DNA of 54,428 nt from Candidatus Uhrbacteria bacterium (lineage in GTDB: Bacteria; Patescibacteriota; Patescibacteriia; 2-12-FULL-60-25): contig JAUSEV010000019.1 of assembly GCA_030649995.1 (NCBI GenBank), positions 1 to 54,428 on the forward strand. Direction: 5' to 3'. The notes under the pieces were generated by a model. The model saw only the letters and a program-made list of their open reading frames with translations, made no database searches and was not told where the DNA came from. Both the position numbers and the translations under genes were made by a program. Position 1 is the stretch's first letter. Every line of letters begins with the position of its first letter. Below are positions 11,612 through 17,716 of the stretch, one piece after another.

Positions 11612-11620
11612 TTGGATCTT

Positions 11621-11647
11621 TTGCGACGCTTGGAAGTGGTCTATACT
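11621..11647 (+). promoter_or_regulatory. Probable promoter of the Xer gene, leaderless
   Basis: TATACT at 11642-11647 lies six bases before the ATG at 11654. The -35 (TTGCGA, 15-bp spacer) is weak. Confidence 0.55.
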
Positions 11648-11653
11648 GGGCGC

Positions 11654-12607
11654 ATGGCAAAACTTTCCTCACATCTACGAACATTTTTGGAGTATTTGGA
11701 GGTCGAAAAGGGACGGTCAATTTTGACCGTGCGGAATTATGAATTTTATTTGCAGCGGTTTATGAAATGGGCCAAAGATCCGGATGCGGACGAGCTGGAT
11801 CAGGATATGATTCATCAATACCGTTTATATCTAAATCGTTTAGCCAGTCGTGGTGAGGGAACCCTCAAAAAAAACACGCAGAATTATCATTTGATCGCCC
11901 TTCGATCATTTTTGAAATTTTTGGCGAGGCGTGACGTGAAAACATTGTCTCCGGAAAAAATTGAGTTGGCAAAACAAGGTTCGCGTGAAGTGGCGTTTTT
12001 GGATGCCAATGATTTGGAACGATTGCTTGAGGCTCCCAATCAATCAAGCGCCTCCACCATCGTCAAGCTGCGCGATCGGGCGATTTTGGAACTGTTTTTT
12101 TCCACCGGTTTGCGCGTGTCCGAACTGGCTAATCTTAAACGCGATCAGGTTAATCTCACGCGCGATGAATTTACGGTGCGTGGCAAGGGCGACAAGTTGC
12201 GCGTGGTGTTTATGTCACATCAGGCGCGACATGCCGTTAAAGCCTATTTGGAGTCGCGAAAAGATGATAGTCAATACTCATTTATTCGACACGATAGGGC
12301 TTCGCAAGGAATCAAGAATCAGGAATCAGGAATGAAGAATGGGATGCATCCATTGACTCCTCGGTCGATTGAACGGCTTGTTCATCATTACGCCGCCGCC
12401 GCGGGCATTGCAAAAAAAATTACGCCGCATACCTTGCGCCATTCGTTTGCCACCGATCTTTTGATGAACGGCGCGGATATTCGAAGCGTTCAATCGCTCT
12501 TGGGCCATGCCTCCATCACGACCACGCAAATCTACACGCACATCACCAACCAACAATTAAAAGACGTGCATCAGGCATTTCATGGAAAACGAAGAGAGGA
12601 GGAGTAG
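11654..12607 (+). CDS. Tyrosine recombinase, XerC/XerD-like
   Basis: 317 aa. Resolves chromosome dimers at dif, presumably with FtsK, or acts as an integrase; CPR genomes often have a single Xer, so the former is more likely. SAM-like N-terminal domain (residues ~5-90), catalytic domain (~110-300) with Arg154 (TGLRVSEL), Lys in GKGDK (~178-181), His259/Arg262 (HTLRH), His285 (LGHAS) and nucleophile Tyr294 (QIYTH). The start is chosen at the ATG right after the -10 box; the 14-codon upstream extension has no support. Residues ~216-230 are encoded by a heptamer array inserted between beta-strands and the HxxR helix. Confidence 0.93.
   Translation: MAKLSSHLRTFLEYLEVEKGRSILTVRNYEFYLQRFMKWAKDPDADELDQDMIHQYRLYLNRLASRGEGTLKKNTQNYHLIALRSFLKFLARRDVKTLSPEKIELAKQGSREVAFLDANDLERLLEAPNQSSASTIVKLRDRAILELFFSTGLRVSELANLKRDQVNLTRDEFTVRGKGDKLRVVFMSHQARHAVKAYLESRKDDSQYSFIRHDRASQGIKNQESGMKNGMHPLTPRSIERLVHHYAAAAGIAKKITPHTLRHSFATDLLMNGADIRSVQSLLGHASITTTQIYTHITNQQLKDVHQAFHGKRREEE
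12308..12343. repeat. Heptamer array (AATCAGG) in coding sequence
   Basis: AATCAAG, AATCAGG, AATCAGG, AATGAAG at a 7-bp period, in frame inside the Xer recombinase gene. Confidence 0.8.
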
Positions 12608-12648: not shown

Positions 12649-12750
12649 TATTGGATTTTGTGTCGGGCTATAGCGAAGTTGGTATCGCGCCTCGTTCGGG
12701 ACGAGGAGGCCGTGGGTTCGAGTCCCACTAGCCCGACAGAAAATCCAATA
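12649..12750. repeat. Inverted repeat extending the tRNA-Pro acceptor stem
   Basis: Positions 12649-12670 and 12729-12750 are complementary over 22 bp (one mismatch), so the 7-bp acceptor stem of tRNA-Pro continues for 15 more pairs into the flanks. The 3' arm contains CGACAGAAAATCCAATA (12734-12750), repeated directly at 14879-14895. Confidence 0.85.
12664..12736 (+). tRNA. tRNA-Pro (CGG)
   Basis: Acceptor CGGGCTA/TAGCCCG, anticodon arm CCTCG-TTCGGGA-CGAGG (anticodon CGG), T-loop TTCGAGT, discriminator A. CCA is not encoded. Confidence 0.93.
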
Positions 12751-12924
12751 AACTACCCCGCAGCAGAGCTGGCGGGGTATCAATCCTAAATCAAAACTCT
12801 GTCATTCTGAACGCAATTCTATGGAGTGAAGAATCTCCGGATTCGACCGAAGATCCTTCGTTCCGCAGAGCCTTCACTCAGGATGACAGAGGATAACGCA
12901 GTAGAGCTGCGGAGTATTGACTCA
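12751..12924. repeat. Composite dispersed repeat
   Basis: Three modules in order: a TACCCCGC...GCGGGGTA hairpin (12754-12780), a ~88-bp palindrome from GTCATTCTGA to GGATGAC (12801-12887), and a GCAGTAGAGCTGCGGAGTA module (12898-12920). The same modules occur in reverse-complement order at 38182-38360. Confidence 0.8.
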
Positions 12925-12948
12925 AAGAGGAGAATAAAATATTTGTGT

Positions 12949-13047
12949 CGGGCTATAGCGAAGTTGGTATCGCGCCTCGTGAGGGAGTAAAGAGATTTGG
13001 GGAATCTCTTTACGAGGCCGTGGGTTCGAGTCCCACTAGCCCGACCA
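12949..13047 (+). tRNA. tRNA-Pro copy with enlarged anticodon arm (GGG?)
   Basis: D-arm, T-arm and acceptor stem are identical to the tRNA-Pro(CGG) 290 bp upstream, and here CCA is encoded (13045-13047). The anticodon loop is replaced by a longer insert: CCTCG, then TGAGGGAG, then a 10-bp hairpin with loop TGGGG, then CGAGG. If the inner hairpin acts as the anticodon arm its loop is TTGGGGA, anticodon GGG. Whether it is functional, intron-bearing or dead cannot be told. The stop codon of the serine recombinase lies inside its acceptor arm. Confidence 0.65.
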
Positions 13048-14556
13048 AACGAGACTTTCGGAAAAACCGAGGGTCTTGTTTTTTTGAAGCGAAAACGATG
13101 GGGCAGTTTTTTTGGCCAACGTATCGATAATTTGGAATCCCCCCAACCAATCGAACGATACGGTTTTGGTGAGGAGGGATGGGTTCGTTCCGTTTTTTGC
13201 CACAAACGATTTGATTTCATGAAAATCGTTTGACAGTGCCAATTTTTTGGCTTGGTAGACGTCTTTCCAAAATTCTTTTAAGGGTTCGATCCATGAGATG
13301 CCCTTCTTCGTAAAATCAGACTTCTTTTGGTGAAGCTCGGTTTTTTGTTTGATAAGACCTTCCTTCTTTTTGAGATAGATATCTTTGTCTATGAGGTTGT
13401 CGAGATATGAGTCCACCAGCTTACCGAGCTTCTCATCTGTTTCGAGGATTTTGCGATCAATATTTTCGGAAAAGGAACCACGATTATTTTTTAATTCCTT
13501 TTCCCACTCTGCAATCTTGGCAAGCCCTTCCTGGTAACAGGTATCGGAAATAGCAACCGATTGAAGCTGTTCCTTGATTTGAGTTGCTACATCTTTTTCT
13601 TGTAAATACTTCTGCGAGCACGGCCCTAATCTTTTGGTACAGCGGTAATAACGATACGTGCCGCCGTGACCGCGAGCATGTTGAGCCGTGATGGCCGCTC
13701 CGCACTCCCCGCAGGTGAGAAGACCGCAGAAAGGAAAGTTATGTCCTTCCTTGTGCTTGCGAGGCCGTGATTTGCTTTTAAGGACTTTCTGAACAGCTTC
13801 AAACGTCTTGGTATCAATCAGAGCCGGAAAATTACCCTGATAGGCTTCCCCGTTATGTTCAATGATCCCTAAGTAGGCTTTGTTAGTTAATATTCGGTAG
13901 ATTGGGGACTTCTTCAAGGGCTTGCCGGTACTGCCTACAATACCCCAAAAACTAAGGCGCTCTGAAATGCTTTCAAAGGTAAAATTGCCCGATGAAAATT
14001 CCTTAAATATTTTTGCAAGAATTTTACCTTTGACGGGATCAGGTTGGATATTCCTTATTTTCGGATCATTAATATATCCAAACGGAGCCCGTGTTGGCCA
14101 TTCCCCACGCCGAAGTTTTTGTCGTATGCCACGCTTAACATTTTCCGATAAGTTATCCGAGTAATATTTAGATTGGCCAAAAGCGACTTGTAACATAAAA
14201 AGCCCTTGGGGAGTGGGTTCAAACCAGAAGGTCGGGAATTTCAATGAACTGATTTTTTCAGTATCAATAGAGTAAATAATCTGTCCTCCATCGATAGAAT
14301 TACGGGCTAAGCGGTCGGGGTGCCAAGCAAGAAGTCCGACAGATTCTTTACTCTTCTCTACTTCCAGCATCATTTCATTGAAAATTTCCCGACCGGGCTT
14401 TTTTGCGCTTTTGCTTTCGATGAAAGTTTTGGCAATAACAATATTTTCTCGTTTGGCGAATTCTTGTAATTCAGTAAGCTGAGCTTCTATGCTCATGATC
14501 TGCCTTTCTTCGTCTTCTGTGCTCTTACGAGCGTAGAGAAAATATTGTATTGACAT
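13036..14556 (-). CDS. Large serine recombinase
   Basis: 506 aa. Site-specific recombinase of the integrase/invertase class. Resolvase catalytic domain (residues 1-150) with YARKS and nucleophile Ser12; recombinase domain (~155-265); zinc ribbon with Cys282, Cys285, Cys306 and Cys313; then a coiled-coil (~325-440) and a C-terminal tail. The ATG is preceded by AAGGAG at very short spacing. The last 49 codons lie in a 148-bp sequence repeated in inverted orientation at 14682-14829, and the stop falls in the neighbouring tRNA-Pro. The arrangement suggests a mobile or invertible unit. Confidence 0.93.
   Translation of the reverse strand: MSIQYFLYARKSTEDEERQIMSIEAQLTELQEFAKRENIVIAKTFIESKSAKKPGREIFNEMMLEVEKSKESVGLLAWHPDRLARNSIDGGQIIYSIDTEKISSLKFPTFWFEPTPQGLFMLQVAFGQSKYYSDNLSENVKRGIRQKLRRGEWPTRAPFGYINDPKIRNIQPDPVKGKILAKIFKEFSSGNFTFESISERLSFWGIVGSTGKPLKKSPIYRILTNKAYLGIIEHNGEAYQGNFPALIDTKTFEAVQKVLKSKSRPRKHKEGHNFPFCGLLTCGECGAAITAQHARGHGGTYRYYRCTKRLGPCSQKYLQEKDVATQIKEQLQSVAISDTCYQEGLAKIAEWEKELKNNRGSFSENIDRKILETDEKLGKLVDSYLDNLIDKDIYLKKKEGLIKQKTELHQKKSDFTKKGISWIEPLKEFWKDVYQAKKLALSNDFHEIKSFVAKNGTNPSLLTKTVSFDWLGGFQIIDTLAKKTAPSFSLQKNKTLGFSESLVWSG
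13042..13189. repeat. Left 148-bp inverted repeat of the recombinase unit
   Basis: Reverse complement of 14682-14829 with three mismatches. It contains the tRNA CCA end and the recombinase C-terminal codons. Confidence 0.93.
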
Positions 14557-14681
14557 ACTCCTTGGGTTTTAAGGAATAAAAATGTTAAGCGTGGTGGTTA
14601 AAAATTGGCACTGTCGCGAGCGGTAACGAGCAGGGGCAAAAAACGGAAAGGACTCACGGGACTTAATGGGCGGAGCACATC

Positions 14682-14829
14682 AACGAACCCCTCCCTCCTC
14701 GCCAAAACCGTGTCGTTCGATTGGTTGGGGGGATTCCAAATTATCGATACGTTGGCCAAAAAAACTGCCCCATCGTTTTCGCTTCAAAAAAACAAGACCC
14801 TCGGTTTTTCCGAAAGTCTCGTTTGGTCG
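14682..14829. repeat. Right 148-bp inverted repeat of the recombinase unit
   Basis: Partner of 13042-13189 (145 of 148 bases by eye). Between the two arms lies ~1.49 kb with the recombinase catalytic region. Confidence 0.93.
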
Positions 14830-14895
14830 AATTTACGTGACCCGGTTCGAAGATTTTTCGAACCGGGTCACGCAAATTCGACAGAAAATCCAATA
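14828..14895. repeat. Long hairpin ending in the tRNA-Pro 3' flank repeat
   Basis: CGAATTT (14828-14834) pairs with AAATTCG (14874-14880), and 14836-14851 pairs perfectly with 14857-14872 around a 5-nt loop. It is followed by ACAGAAAATCCAATA, exactly as the acceptor stem of tRNA-Pro(CGG) is. Looks like a recombination or transcription-stop site. Confidence 0.8.
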
Positions 14896-14899
14896 GAAA

Positions 14900-14940
14900 T
14901 AAAAAAGAGGCCGCGTTGAGTTTGAGTCAACGAGGCCTCA
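14900..14940 (-). terminator. Terminator of the FHA gene
   Basis: On the minus strand GAGGCC-t-CGTTGA pairs with TCAACG-c-GGCCTC and is followed by six T. Confidence 0.9.
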
Positions 14941-14956: not shown

Positions 14957-15991
14957 TTATTCCATCCAGCACCAGAGACAGGTTTCCCTGTTCTCGGTGA
15001 GTCCATCCGGGTTTTGCGGGATGGAGTGGAGATGCCAGCAGTCGTACTCACCGCGTTCGTTCCGCTCCACCCTCGAGATAGGGTACTCCCATCTCTTGAT
15101 GGACTTGCAATCCGACCTCATCTCGCAGGCCGGCTTGCACACGCGCTTGCGCGTTGGCTTGGGTGCGGTGGCGGCATCTTCGGAGGCTACGATCTGAGTC
15201 GGAGGAGGTGCGGGAGCTTTGTACTCGTCGTTTACGATGAAGTCTCCGCACTTCACCAGGAGGAGGGCAACAAAGCCCACTAGCAGGTAGAAGAAGATAT
15301 TTCCACCGTCCGTGAAAGACCAGGAGATTTTGATCCTTTTCCACAGCCTGGCAGAGACCGTACGATGTGGTGTCACTACGGTCGGACTGGTTGCCGCCGG
15401 CGGAGGAGCGGGCAGAGAATCGACAATGACGGTTGCGCTCCTCATCGTCGGACCGGCGGTCCGTATACTCGTGGCCTCTCCGACAGCAGCCGGATCCGCG
15501 TCATCACTTCTGACTACTCTTGGATCCGGAAACGGAGCGCGTGGTGCCGGAGCGACAGGATCTGCCGGCGGGAATCTGCCGGGCACCATGGTGACTGCCG
15601 TTCCCATGGGATCGGCCGGTGCCGCCCTCGGCGTAGCGGGAGCTTCCTCCACGATCGCATCGTTTGTCACAAGGTTGACGACTTCTTCGATCGTGATCGT
15701 GAAGGAGATTTCACCAATCTTGACGGTGTCGCCGCTCTTGACCTCGCTCCGTTCCCCGTTTCGAGAAATTCCGTTTACCAGAATCCCTCTCCCGGAGATA
15801 TCAAGGATGGTCAGCTTCCCATCCTGCAATCTCAAGTTGGCGTGCTGGAGACGGATACTCGAGTGGTCGATGCGAACTTTACAGCTATAGTGCGAACCGA
15901 TGGGTGTCGGTTGTTTTCCAACATCAACTACCTCCTCACGGGGAGGCGCCGTCGATCCGGGATCCTGCAAAAATACGATCCGGATTTTCAT
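14957..15991 (-). CDS. Transmembrane FHA-domain protein
   Basis: 344 aa; start fixed by AAGGAGGA six bases before the ATG. A cytoplasmic FHA domain (residues ~24-103; conserved GSHYSCKVRI, SIRLQHANLRL, GRGILVNG, GDTVKIG) would bind phosphothreonine peptides. A long Pro/Ala-rich linker (~112-210) leads to one TM helix (~231-249) and an external tail with six Cys (285, 289, 295, 318, 338, 341) that could form disulfides. This inside-to-outside layout suggests signalling or anchoring of an envelope complex. No kinase or phosphatase gene is nearby. Monocistronic with its own terminator; GC-rich codons. Confidence 0.85.
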   Translation of the reverse strand: MKIRIVFLQDPGSTAPPREEVVDVGKQPTPIGSHYSCKVRIDHSSIRLQHANLRLQDGKLTILDISGRGILVNGISRNGERSEVKSGDTVKIGEISFTITIEEVVNLVTNDAIVEEAPATPRAAPADPMGTAVTMVPGRFPPADPVAPAPRAPFPDPRVVRSDDADPAAVGEATSIRTAGPTMRSATVIVDSLPAPPPAATSPTVVTPHRTVSARLWKRIKISWSFTDGGNIFFYLLVGFVALLLVKCGDFIVNDEYKAPAPPPTQIVASEDAATAPKPTRKRVCKPACEMRSDCKSIKRWEYPISRVERNERGEYDCWHLHSIPQNPDGLTENRETCLWCWME

Positions 15992-16105
15992 GGTCTCCTC
16001 CTTTCGGGAGTTTGTGTGGTGTCAAAAAAACGATTTTTTCCCCAAAATTCAGACCTTTGCAGACCTTTTCAGGGAACGCATAACTATACAAGGAAAATCA
16101 TCCTT

Positions 16106-16134
16106 TTGTCAAGTCACGCATCATCCGATACTCT
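16106..16134 (+). promoter_or_regulatory. Promoter of gpmI, leaderless
   Basis: TTGTCA (16106-16111), 17-bp spacer, TACTCT (16129-16134), then seven bases to the ATG at 16142. Confidence 0.75.
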
Positions 16135-16141
16135 ATCAACC

Positions 16142-17716
16142 ATGTCCCGTCCAAAACCGGTCATTTTAATCATCATTGATGGATTTGGTGTGGCACCACC
16201 GTCAGAAGGCAATGCCGTGTTTGCGGCACGCATGCCGAATTTTCATAAATACGTGGGAAGTTATCCTGCGATGACGGTTCAGGCTTCCGGAGAGACCGTT
16301 GGATTGTCTTGGGGCGAAATGGGAAATTCAGAAGTGGGACATTTAACGATCGGCGCCGGCAGGATTTTTTATCAAAGTTTGCCGCGCATCAATTTGTCGA
16401 TTCAGAGCGGAGAATTTTATCAAAATTCAGCTTTGAAAAAAGCCTTGGCACACGTCACGACGACCAAAGGGAAATTACATTTGATCGGTCTCACGTCTTC
16501 CGGAGGGGTGCATGCCTCGCAAGAACATCTGTATGCGTTGCTTGAACTTTGTCGTCGTGAAAATTTTGATCGGGTATTTGTGCATGCCGTGCTGGACGGT
16601 CGCGATACGTTGTACAACGCCGCCGCAGGGTTTATTCAAGAACTGGAAAACAAAATAGCGGAATTAAAGGTTGGCGCGATCGCCACTGTTTCCGGTCGTT
16701 ACTATGCCATGGATCGGGACAATCGTTGGGATCGAATCGAGAAAGCTTATCGGGCTATGGCATTGGGGGATGGGCCTATGATGGAAAGTGCCTCGGCCGC
16801 GATTCAGGCTTCGTATGCGCAAGGGATTTATGATGAGCAATTTGTGCCGACGGTGATCGCATCCGGCGGCAACCCCGTTACGAAGATCGAGGCGGGGGAC
16901 AGCGTGATCTTTTTTAATTTTCGTCCTGATCGCGCGCGTGAACTGACCAAGGCGTTTGTCGTGCCGGCTTTTGATAAATTTTCGCGCGAATATATTCCCG
17001 ATCTTTTATTCGCGACCATGACGGAATATGAAAAAGATCTGCCGGTGGAGGTCGCTTTCCCTCCCCACACCATTGAAACGTGTTTGGCGCGTGTTGTGTC
17101 TGATGCCGGACTTCGACAATTGCATATCGCCGAGACCGAGAAGTATGCTCACGTGAGTTTCTTTTTTAATGGCATGCGAGAAGAAGAGTTTCCGGGCGAG
17201 GATCGCGTGATTATTCCTTCCCCGCGCGTTTCCAGTTACGATCAAGAGCCGGAAATGTCCGCGTTTTTGTTGGCCGAGCGCGTGGTCAAAGAAATTTCCG
17301 CGGGAACGTACGATTTTATCGTGATGAATTTTGCCAATCCGGACATGGTGGCTCATACAGGGAATGAGCAGGCAACCATTGTGGCGTGCGAAACCGTTGA
17401 TCAAGCCATCGGTCAGATCGTGGAAGCGGCTTTGGCCGTTGGCGGAGCCGTCGTTATCACCGCGGATCATGGGAATGCGGAAGAGATTAAAAATTTAGTG
17501 ACCGGCGGCATGGATAAAGAACATTCAACCAACCCCGTTCCCTTGGTGATTATCAGCAAAGCACATGAGGGGATTCAAGCGCCGAGCGGAGACGTGATCG
17601 GCGGCGATCTTTCTCTCACGACACCCATCGGCATGTTGGCGGATGTTGCGCCAACGATCTGCAAGTTATTGGAAATTCCGCCTGCGCCGGATATGACGGG
17701 ACAGGCGTTGATATAA
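16142..17716 (+). CDS. gpmI: 2,3-bisphosphoglycerate-independent phosphoglycerate mutase
   Basis: 524 aa (family ~510). Interconverts 3- and 2-phosphoglycerate in lower glycolysis using two Mn2+. Metal ligand Asp13 (IIDGFG), catalytic Ser63 in GNSEVGH, HAVLDGRDT, NFRPDRARE, and the C-terminal metal motifs NPDMVAHTG, ADHGNAEE and KEHSTNPVP are all present. The open frame extends 777 bp upstream, but MSRPKPVILIIIDGFG is the true N-terminus and sits directly behind a -10 box. Confidence 0.97.
   Translation: MSRPKPVILIIIDGFGVAPPSEGNAVFAARMPNFHKYVGSYPAMTVQASGETVGLSWGEMGNSEVGHLTIGAGRIFYQSLPRINLSIQSGEFYQNSALKKALAHVTTTKGKLHLIGLTSSGGVHASQEHLYALLELCRRENFDRVFVHAVLDGRDTLYNAAAGFIQELENKIAELKVGAIATVSGRYYAMDRDNRWDRIEKAYRAMALGDGPMMESASAAIQASYAQGIYDEQFVPTVIASGGNPVTKIEAGDSVIFFNFRPDRARELTKAFVVPAFDKFSREYIPDLLFATMTEYEKDLPVEVAFPPHTIETCLARVVSDAGLRQLHIAETEKYAHVSFFFNGMREEEFPGEDRVIIPSPRVSSYDQEPEMSAFLLAERVVKEISAGTYDFIVMNFANPDMVAHTGNEQATIVACETVDQAIGQIVEAALAVGGAVVITADHGNAEEIKNLVTGGMDKEHSTNPVPLVIISKAHEGIQAPSGDVIGGDLSLTTPIGMLADVAPTICKLLEIPPAPDMTGQALI

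Follow-up and report, generated by a model that had tools for sequence, protein, structure and literature searches.

A putative tRNA-targeting serine recombinase element that retains an inverted copy of its own gene end

Results

A serine recombinase gene between inverted repeats at a tRNA gene

We analysed a stretch of DNA of 54,428 nucleotides, hereafter the window. Two tRNA genes on the plus strand mark the left side of the locus. The upstream one, tRNA-Pro(CGG), is located at 12664-12737. The second gene (12949-13047, 285 bp downstream) was called tRNA-Ser by ARAGORN and had an Rfam tRNA score of 48 bits; both of its halves were near-identical to tRNA-Pro(CGG), and it is referred to here as tRNA-Pro-like. 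Its 38-nt anticodon-arm region consists of CGTGAGGGAG, a hairpin and CGAGG. Similar odd tRNA-Pro-like fragments form an array around the same tRNA-Pro(CGG) in an element-free genome of the same genus (L183, positions 632-975). The spacer between the two tRNA genes (12747-12900) is a dispersed repeat of about 150 bp; it occurs in more than 20 copies in the window genome, and a search of two other genomes from the genus showed none.

A large serine recombinase gene (13036-14556, minus strand) encodes 506 aa with Resolvase (PF00239, 1.2e-20), Recombinase (PF07508, 1.6e-12) and Zn-ribbon (PF13408, 1.3e-10) domains. The catalytic Ser12 is intact, and R10, S12, R82 and R85 were invariant in the 11 members compared, the window protein included. 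The 148-nt inverted repeat of the original prediction was recovered at 13042-13189 (arm A, minus strand) and 14682-14829 (arm B, plus strand), with 145 of 148 positions identical (98% complementary) and mismatches at 13159, 13170 and 13180. Arm A is the 3' end of the recombinase gene. The prediction had placed both the C-terminal codons and the stop in this arm; the codons are there, but the reading frame passes the arm by 3-6 bp into the opposite-strand tRNA-like gene, and its stop (13036-13038) lies 3 bp outside the arm. The last codons and the stop are therefore provided by antisense tRNA sequence, and the true C-terminal tail is absent. Arm B repeats this 3' end in inverted orientation and keeps the frame of the gene. 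It was correctly predicted to read outwards: a plus-strand ORF (14605-14919) contains arm B followed by the tail NLRDPVRRFFEPG, which inversion of the segment would add to the gene.

Three short cores were located at the junctions. Core 1 (CGAC, 13042-13045) lies at the end of the occupied tRNA gene, within attL, and the sequence is common to attL, attP and attR; the tRNA 3' end forms the B half of attL, and arm A is the attP half joined to it. Core 2 (GTCG, 14826-14829) is the crossover region of an intact internal attP. Next to it is a 49-bp palindrome (14830-14878, plus strand), here called the R segment, which comprises a 22-nt piece coding for the C-terminal tail, GATTT, and the same piece inverted (21/22 identical). 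It registers as an inverted repeat of 14826-14851 with 14857-14882. We had considered this hairpin (14826-14882) as a mere terminator, and this reading was dropped, since it equals the tail piece plus an inverted tail piece ending in a core. Core 3 (CGAC, 14879-14882) and the displaced tRNA 3' flank (14879-14895, plus strand) constitute attR, the right end of the element. The 17-base direct copies noted originally, CGACAGAAAATCCAATA, were found here and at 12734-12750. The element in the window thus measures 1,837 bp, and its R segment contains only the palindrome. With no cargo, and with a C-terminal piece that runs out in a palindrome and has no normal stop of its own, this copy may represent a degenerate remnant.

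A tyrosine recombinase gene (11612-12607) near the locus was examined as a candidate integrase and rejected, because its 3' end also precedes tRNA-Pro in an element-free genome of the same genus; it is probably the host XerC/D. To the right, the iPGM ORF (15365-17716, 783 aa) begins with about 255 residues that nearly all of 40 genomes from the same family lack. This stretch overlaps an opposite-strand FHA-domain ORF (14957-15991), and the true iPGM start is probably near 16130.

Target tRNA genes, cores and empty sites

When the 3' half of the interrupted tRNA gene was joined to the right flank of the element, the predicted empty site (attB) matched the neighbouring tRNA-Pro(CGG) and its 3' flank in 45 of 45 bases; the latter is an unoccupied twin of the target site. 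Relatives lacking the element also had the target tRNA unoccupied. In L182, of the same genus, a lone tRNA-Pro(CGG) lies between an xer-type gene and the FHA/iPGM locus, and in L238, of the same genus as the L055 host, the target tRNA-Glu is free. Since attL, an internal attP and attR can all be placed and the empty site is predicted exactly, there is strong support for one of the two alternatives first offered for this locus, that of an integrated element with a duplicated end.

Across the related loci described below, attL, attP and attR had in common only CCA(C), CGAC or similar cores of 3-5 bp, which match the 3' end of each particular target tRNA, and no target-site duplication was found beyond the shared core. 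We also tried to recognize attR by the longest direct repeats between the tRNA and the right flank. This was useless, since chance matches of 8-13 bp occurred in nearly all loci; the search fails because the core is only 3-5 bp. Some target tRNA genes have no encoded CCA (attL of L067, L073 and L083), and there the arm supplies CCA after integration (GGTCCAC followed by TGC gives GGTCCACCA).

The recombinase gene is cut within its coding sequence

In most loci, arm B runs in frame outwards into a conserved tail, such as WW followed by CLLEKVRTHFEQNPD and a stop, with LLEKVRTHFEQNPD as the conserved tail type, and arm A runs into antisense tRNA. This indicated that the gene is cut at a core within its own coding sequence and that its true 3' end lies beyond arm B. 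We then computed the proteins of the different arrangements: the present gene encodes 506 residues, the gene in the inverted segment would encode 534, ending in …SLVWSNLRDPVRRFFEPGHANSTENPIEIKKRPR, and that in a circle 550. A flip between the arms would therefore keep the gene open and give it a different tail, as had been proposed, with the conserved tail replacing the tRNA-derived one.

The tail motif (V/I/A)RTx(F/Y) is widely conserved, and the tail is therefore of importance to the element. Cutting removes no more than the final ~12-20 residues. The catalytic domain of serine recombinases is N-terminal, and the cut protein could for these reasons still be active; tail loss might either inactivate the enzyme or change its site preference. 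Between the two recombinase copies of the window genome, dN/dS was 0.15 over 455 codons. The value reflects purifying selection and indicates an enzyme that stayed functional for most of the time since the copies diverged.

The arrangement is conserved in a recombinase clade

The original prediction had suggested looking for the same arrangement at other tRNA genes, and one more copy exists in the window genome itself: a different contig (C27) carries it at tRNA-Pro(GGG), with a protein 73% identical. The two arms of this copy match each other at 100% over 97 bp up to the contig end, which falls inside arm B, and match those in the window at only about 75%. We assembled 105 related recombinase loci, consisting of 80 from the genome collection, further copies in those hosts and loci from same-family genomes; many come from metagenome bins, and the host names of single loci are uncertain. 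The inverted repeat was present in 82 of the 105 loci. Together with the additional copy in the window genome, this recurrence goes beyond what chance would produce. This conserved arrangement excluded the scenario in which the right arm is an unrelated, decayed second gene, and we rejected that candidate.

Measurements were made on 52 loci with complete arms and a recognized tRNA or tmRNA. The median arm was 124 bp, with a within-element arm identity of at least 95% in 47 loci. The arm overlapped the tRNA 3' end by 4-6 nt in 48 loci, and the recombinase stop lay beyond the arm in 51. At least 16 different tDNA types were occupied; the targets included Ala, Ser, Pro, Leu, Gln, Gly, Val, Asn, Glu, Cys, Arg, Lys, Asp, His, Tyr, Thr and tmRNA. 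One genome (G047) harboured at least six copies (L201, L202, L205, L208, L209 and L107), each at a different tRNA gene; their arms of 112-158 bp were near-perfect and differed from copy to copy.

The hosts include Patescibacteria, Bacteroidota, Bdellovibrionota, Myxococcota and others, and within the class of the window genome, 80 of 381 sampled genomes gave a strong match. The repeat-bearing recombinases formed one clade in a quick tree (87 rows, SH-aLRT 96). The repeat was absent from all 13 outgroup recombinases scored and was not detectable in seven rows inside the clade, four of which are visibly broken or odd (L051, L100, L104 and L110). Several outgroup recombinases likewise end in antisense tRNA, suggesting that the gene-end attP may predate the inverted copy. 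No close relatives were found in plasmids and phages, with only 22-30% matches among the matches listed; viral contigs yielded two fragments of 117-120 residues and two distant (21-24%) matches.

A second tail copy at the far end of the element, and cargo

If a circle integrates at a core within the gene, an inverted tail copy is expected at the far end of the element, beside the chromosomal flank. Such a copy was found as predicted, adjoining the core and the flank. In the larger relatives, it was mostly 110-315 bp long and mostly 95-100% identical, with cargo in between: 226 bp and 100% in L083 (a complete genome), 272 bp and 100% in L055, 286 bp and 99.7% in L067, 304 bp and 99.7% in L073, 269 bp and 95.5% in L101, and 132 bp and 98.5% in L105. 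It was shorter or more diverged in L061, L072, L082, L081 and L057, and it was not found in 4 of 16 long-flank loci (L107, L091, L032 and L108). A class-wide search later added three loci with both repeat sets (L241, L245 and L246). We had also entertained a transposon with terminal inverted repeats, and this was rejected once the far-end tail copies were found.

Measured element sizes were about 3.0-11.8 kb. The cargo of complete elements included a HinP1I-like restriction enzyme with a C5 methylase and Vsr, a DpnII-like enzyme with N6/N4 methylases, OLD/Gabija-like ATPase-TOPRIM proteins, a ThsB-like TIR protein, XRE-type regulators and transporters. No replication or partition genes were recognized among the cargo ORFs inspected. 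In Patescibacteria, the cargo of islands from this family (L133, L134, L138, L185 and L191) comprises compact genes for restriction-modification and of the OLD/Gabija-like and ThsB-like kinds; an XRE-type or LexA-like regulator often precedes them.

Orientation of the recombinase segment

We designated as state 2 the arrangement in which the 3' end of the gene abuts the tRNA, and as state 1 that in which the gene starts on the tRNA side and points away. State 2 was found in 70 loci and state 1 in two, L035 at tRNA-Leu and L098 at tRNA-Glu; the tRNA-side arm copy is clear in L035 (…NRRLLDKAVLLDLKKPW…VWW) and weak in L098. About 14 loci found later were all in state 2. If the two attP copies were equivalent, both states should arise equally, yet 70 stand against 2, which suggests that state 1 is unstable or turns into state 2. 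At a contig end of L062, the far-end tail is joined to the arm, as it would be in a circle; that genome has two near-identical elements, and the junction may be an assembly effect. The other alternative first offered for this locus, a self-inverting integrase unit, is compatible with the anatomy, and the relative L035 has the opposite orientation; inversion itself stays a prediction, and no genome among those examined had both orientations.

Discussion

Read in the orientation of the tRNA, the integrated order would be tRNA, core 1, arm A as the reversed gene end, the reversed recombinase gene, arm B, core 2, tail, R segment with cargo, inverted tail, core 3 and flank, and this anatomy was observed in the window and its relatives. 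We consider it highly probable that it represents an integrated mobile element of one recombinase family, which targets the 3' end of tRNA genes, has its recombinase gene cut on integration and keeps an inverted second attP. The excised circle would contain two inverted attP sites, each consisting of an arm, a core of 3-5 bp matching the tRNA 3' end and a conserved C-terminal piece. One of these sites would lie inside the recombinase gene near its 3' end, and in circular form the gene would be uninterrupted. On recombination between this attP and the 3' end of the tRNA gene, the element would be integrated and the recombinase gene cut, giving state 2 as in the window; the cut gene would lose its last conserved codons and take a tail and a stop from the antisense tRNA, and the second, inverted attP would remain in the element and preserve the lost end in full. 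If the other attP were used instead, or if the segment between the arms were inverted, the gene would be whole and directed away from the tRNA (state 1). That recombination takes place at these cores is deduced from the sequence junctions together with the established chemistry of large serine recombinases. State 2 may be locked or altered in activity, and inversion may unlock it. We tentatively extend this to a self-resetting suicide integrase, a possibility we take seriously without favouring it: the orientation of the recombinase segment would both record and set whether the island is locked, with the tail lost, or mobile, with the tail restored.

Several other explanations were weighed. 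The inverted repeat might have no switching role and be an old duplication of the gene end that hitchhikes, homogenized by gene conversion or by palindrome correction in the circle. Homogenization is needed in any case, since arms are at least 95% identical within 47 of 52 elements and only about 75% between the elements of the window genome, and it requires no switch. However, arm B is still joined in frame to the conserved tail in nearly all members, the far-end copies are nearly as identical as the arms, and retention of the repeat across many phyla suggests use. We regard this explanation as unlikely, although it is the strongest of the competitors. Less probable again, in our judgement, is a role of the inverted att sites in copy-number amplification or in inversion within a free circle, in the style of the yeast 2-micron plasmid. 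The topology is alike, with two head-to-head target sites in long inverted repeats and a recombinase gene that enters one of them; but large serine integrases normally do not carry out attP × attP recombination, and the cargo ORFs inspected contained no recognized replication gene.

The remaining two explanations deserve very little weight. A phase-variation switch, non-mobile and acting on the recombinase gene alone, would account for the promoter and gene between inverted repeats, the tail swap on flipping and the opposite orientations in different genomes, but it is very improbable given copies at 16 or more tDNA types with cargo, attR and an exact empty site, and the ratio of 70 to 2 is not expected of a balanced switch. 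Slightly more improbable still is a transposon with terminal inverted repeats, or two decayed recombinase insertions lying head to head. When the window alone is read, the repeat does appear terminal; in the relatives and in the window, however, the element extends past arm B as far as a third core. Outside the shared core no target site is duplicated, the same layout recurs among the relatives, and purifying selection acts on the recombinase.

The preferred reading, an integrated element with its gene cut at an internal attP, has parallels in known systems. In enzyme architecture, in the reaction of attP with attB to give attL and attR, and in the very short shared core, the family resembles the elements of phiC31, Bxb1, TndX and Ccr/SCCmec; to our knowledge, in these named large serine integrase elements attP adjoins the integrase gene, and a second, inverted attP is lacking. 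In insertion sequences with terminal inverted repeats, the repeats are the ends, whereas this element passes arm B to core 3. The archaeal 'suicidal' integrases (SSV1-type, pTN3 and pT26-2) have attP within the integrase gene, which is split on integration at a target such as a tRNA gene; they are described as tyrosine recombinases and exclusively archaeal, and the persistence of such elements is an open puzzle (PMC8371274). The present family likewise has attP inside the integrase gene and partitions the gene at integration, but its enzyme is a large serine recombinase from bacteria that loses no more than a short tail at the C-terminus, and the element retains the gene end in full as an inverted copy; in the SSV type, the catalytic part is in Int(C) and there is no inverted spare. 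The yeast 2-micron (Flp/FRT) circle has two inverted repeats with head-to-head recombinase sites and two unique segments (PMC6594588). Two such repeats, the arms and the far-end repeats, are also seen here when read in the integrated form. In contrast, the 2-micron circle is an autonomous nuclear plasmid with a tyrosine recombinase whose identical FRTs recombine together, and the present element has a serine integrase and is chromosomally integrated. Islander-type tRNA/tmRNA islands occupy the tDNA 3' end, restore the target and carry cargo including defence genes (PMC4383910). The tDNA target, its restoration and a known empty site are shared features, but Islander-type islands usually have a tyrosine integrase and longer displaced tDNA fragments, and here the shared core is 3-5 bp. 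Within the open-access literature, we found no paper on split serine integrases or this layout and no published bacterial or serine-integrase counterpart; as open-access text was what was searched, this is weak evidence for novelty.

These results point to an independent, serine-based self-disrupting integrase that is widespread in bacteria and is repeatedly associated with restriction-modification and other anti-phage genes. The element family explains the frequent assembly breaks at tRNA genes in these genomes, and its Patescibacteria islands may provide a catalogue of defence genes for tiny genomes. The family offers many serine integrases with predictable tRNA target sites. The built-in spare could solve the persistence puzzle of self-disrupting integrases, and this family makes that question directly testable.
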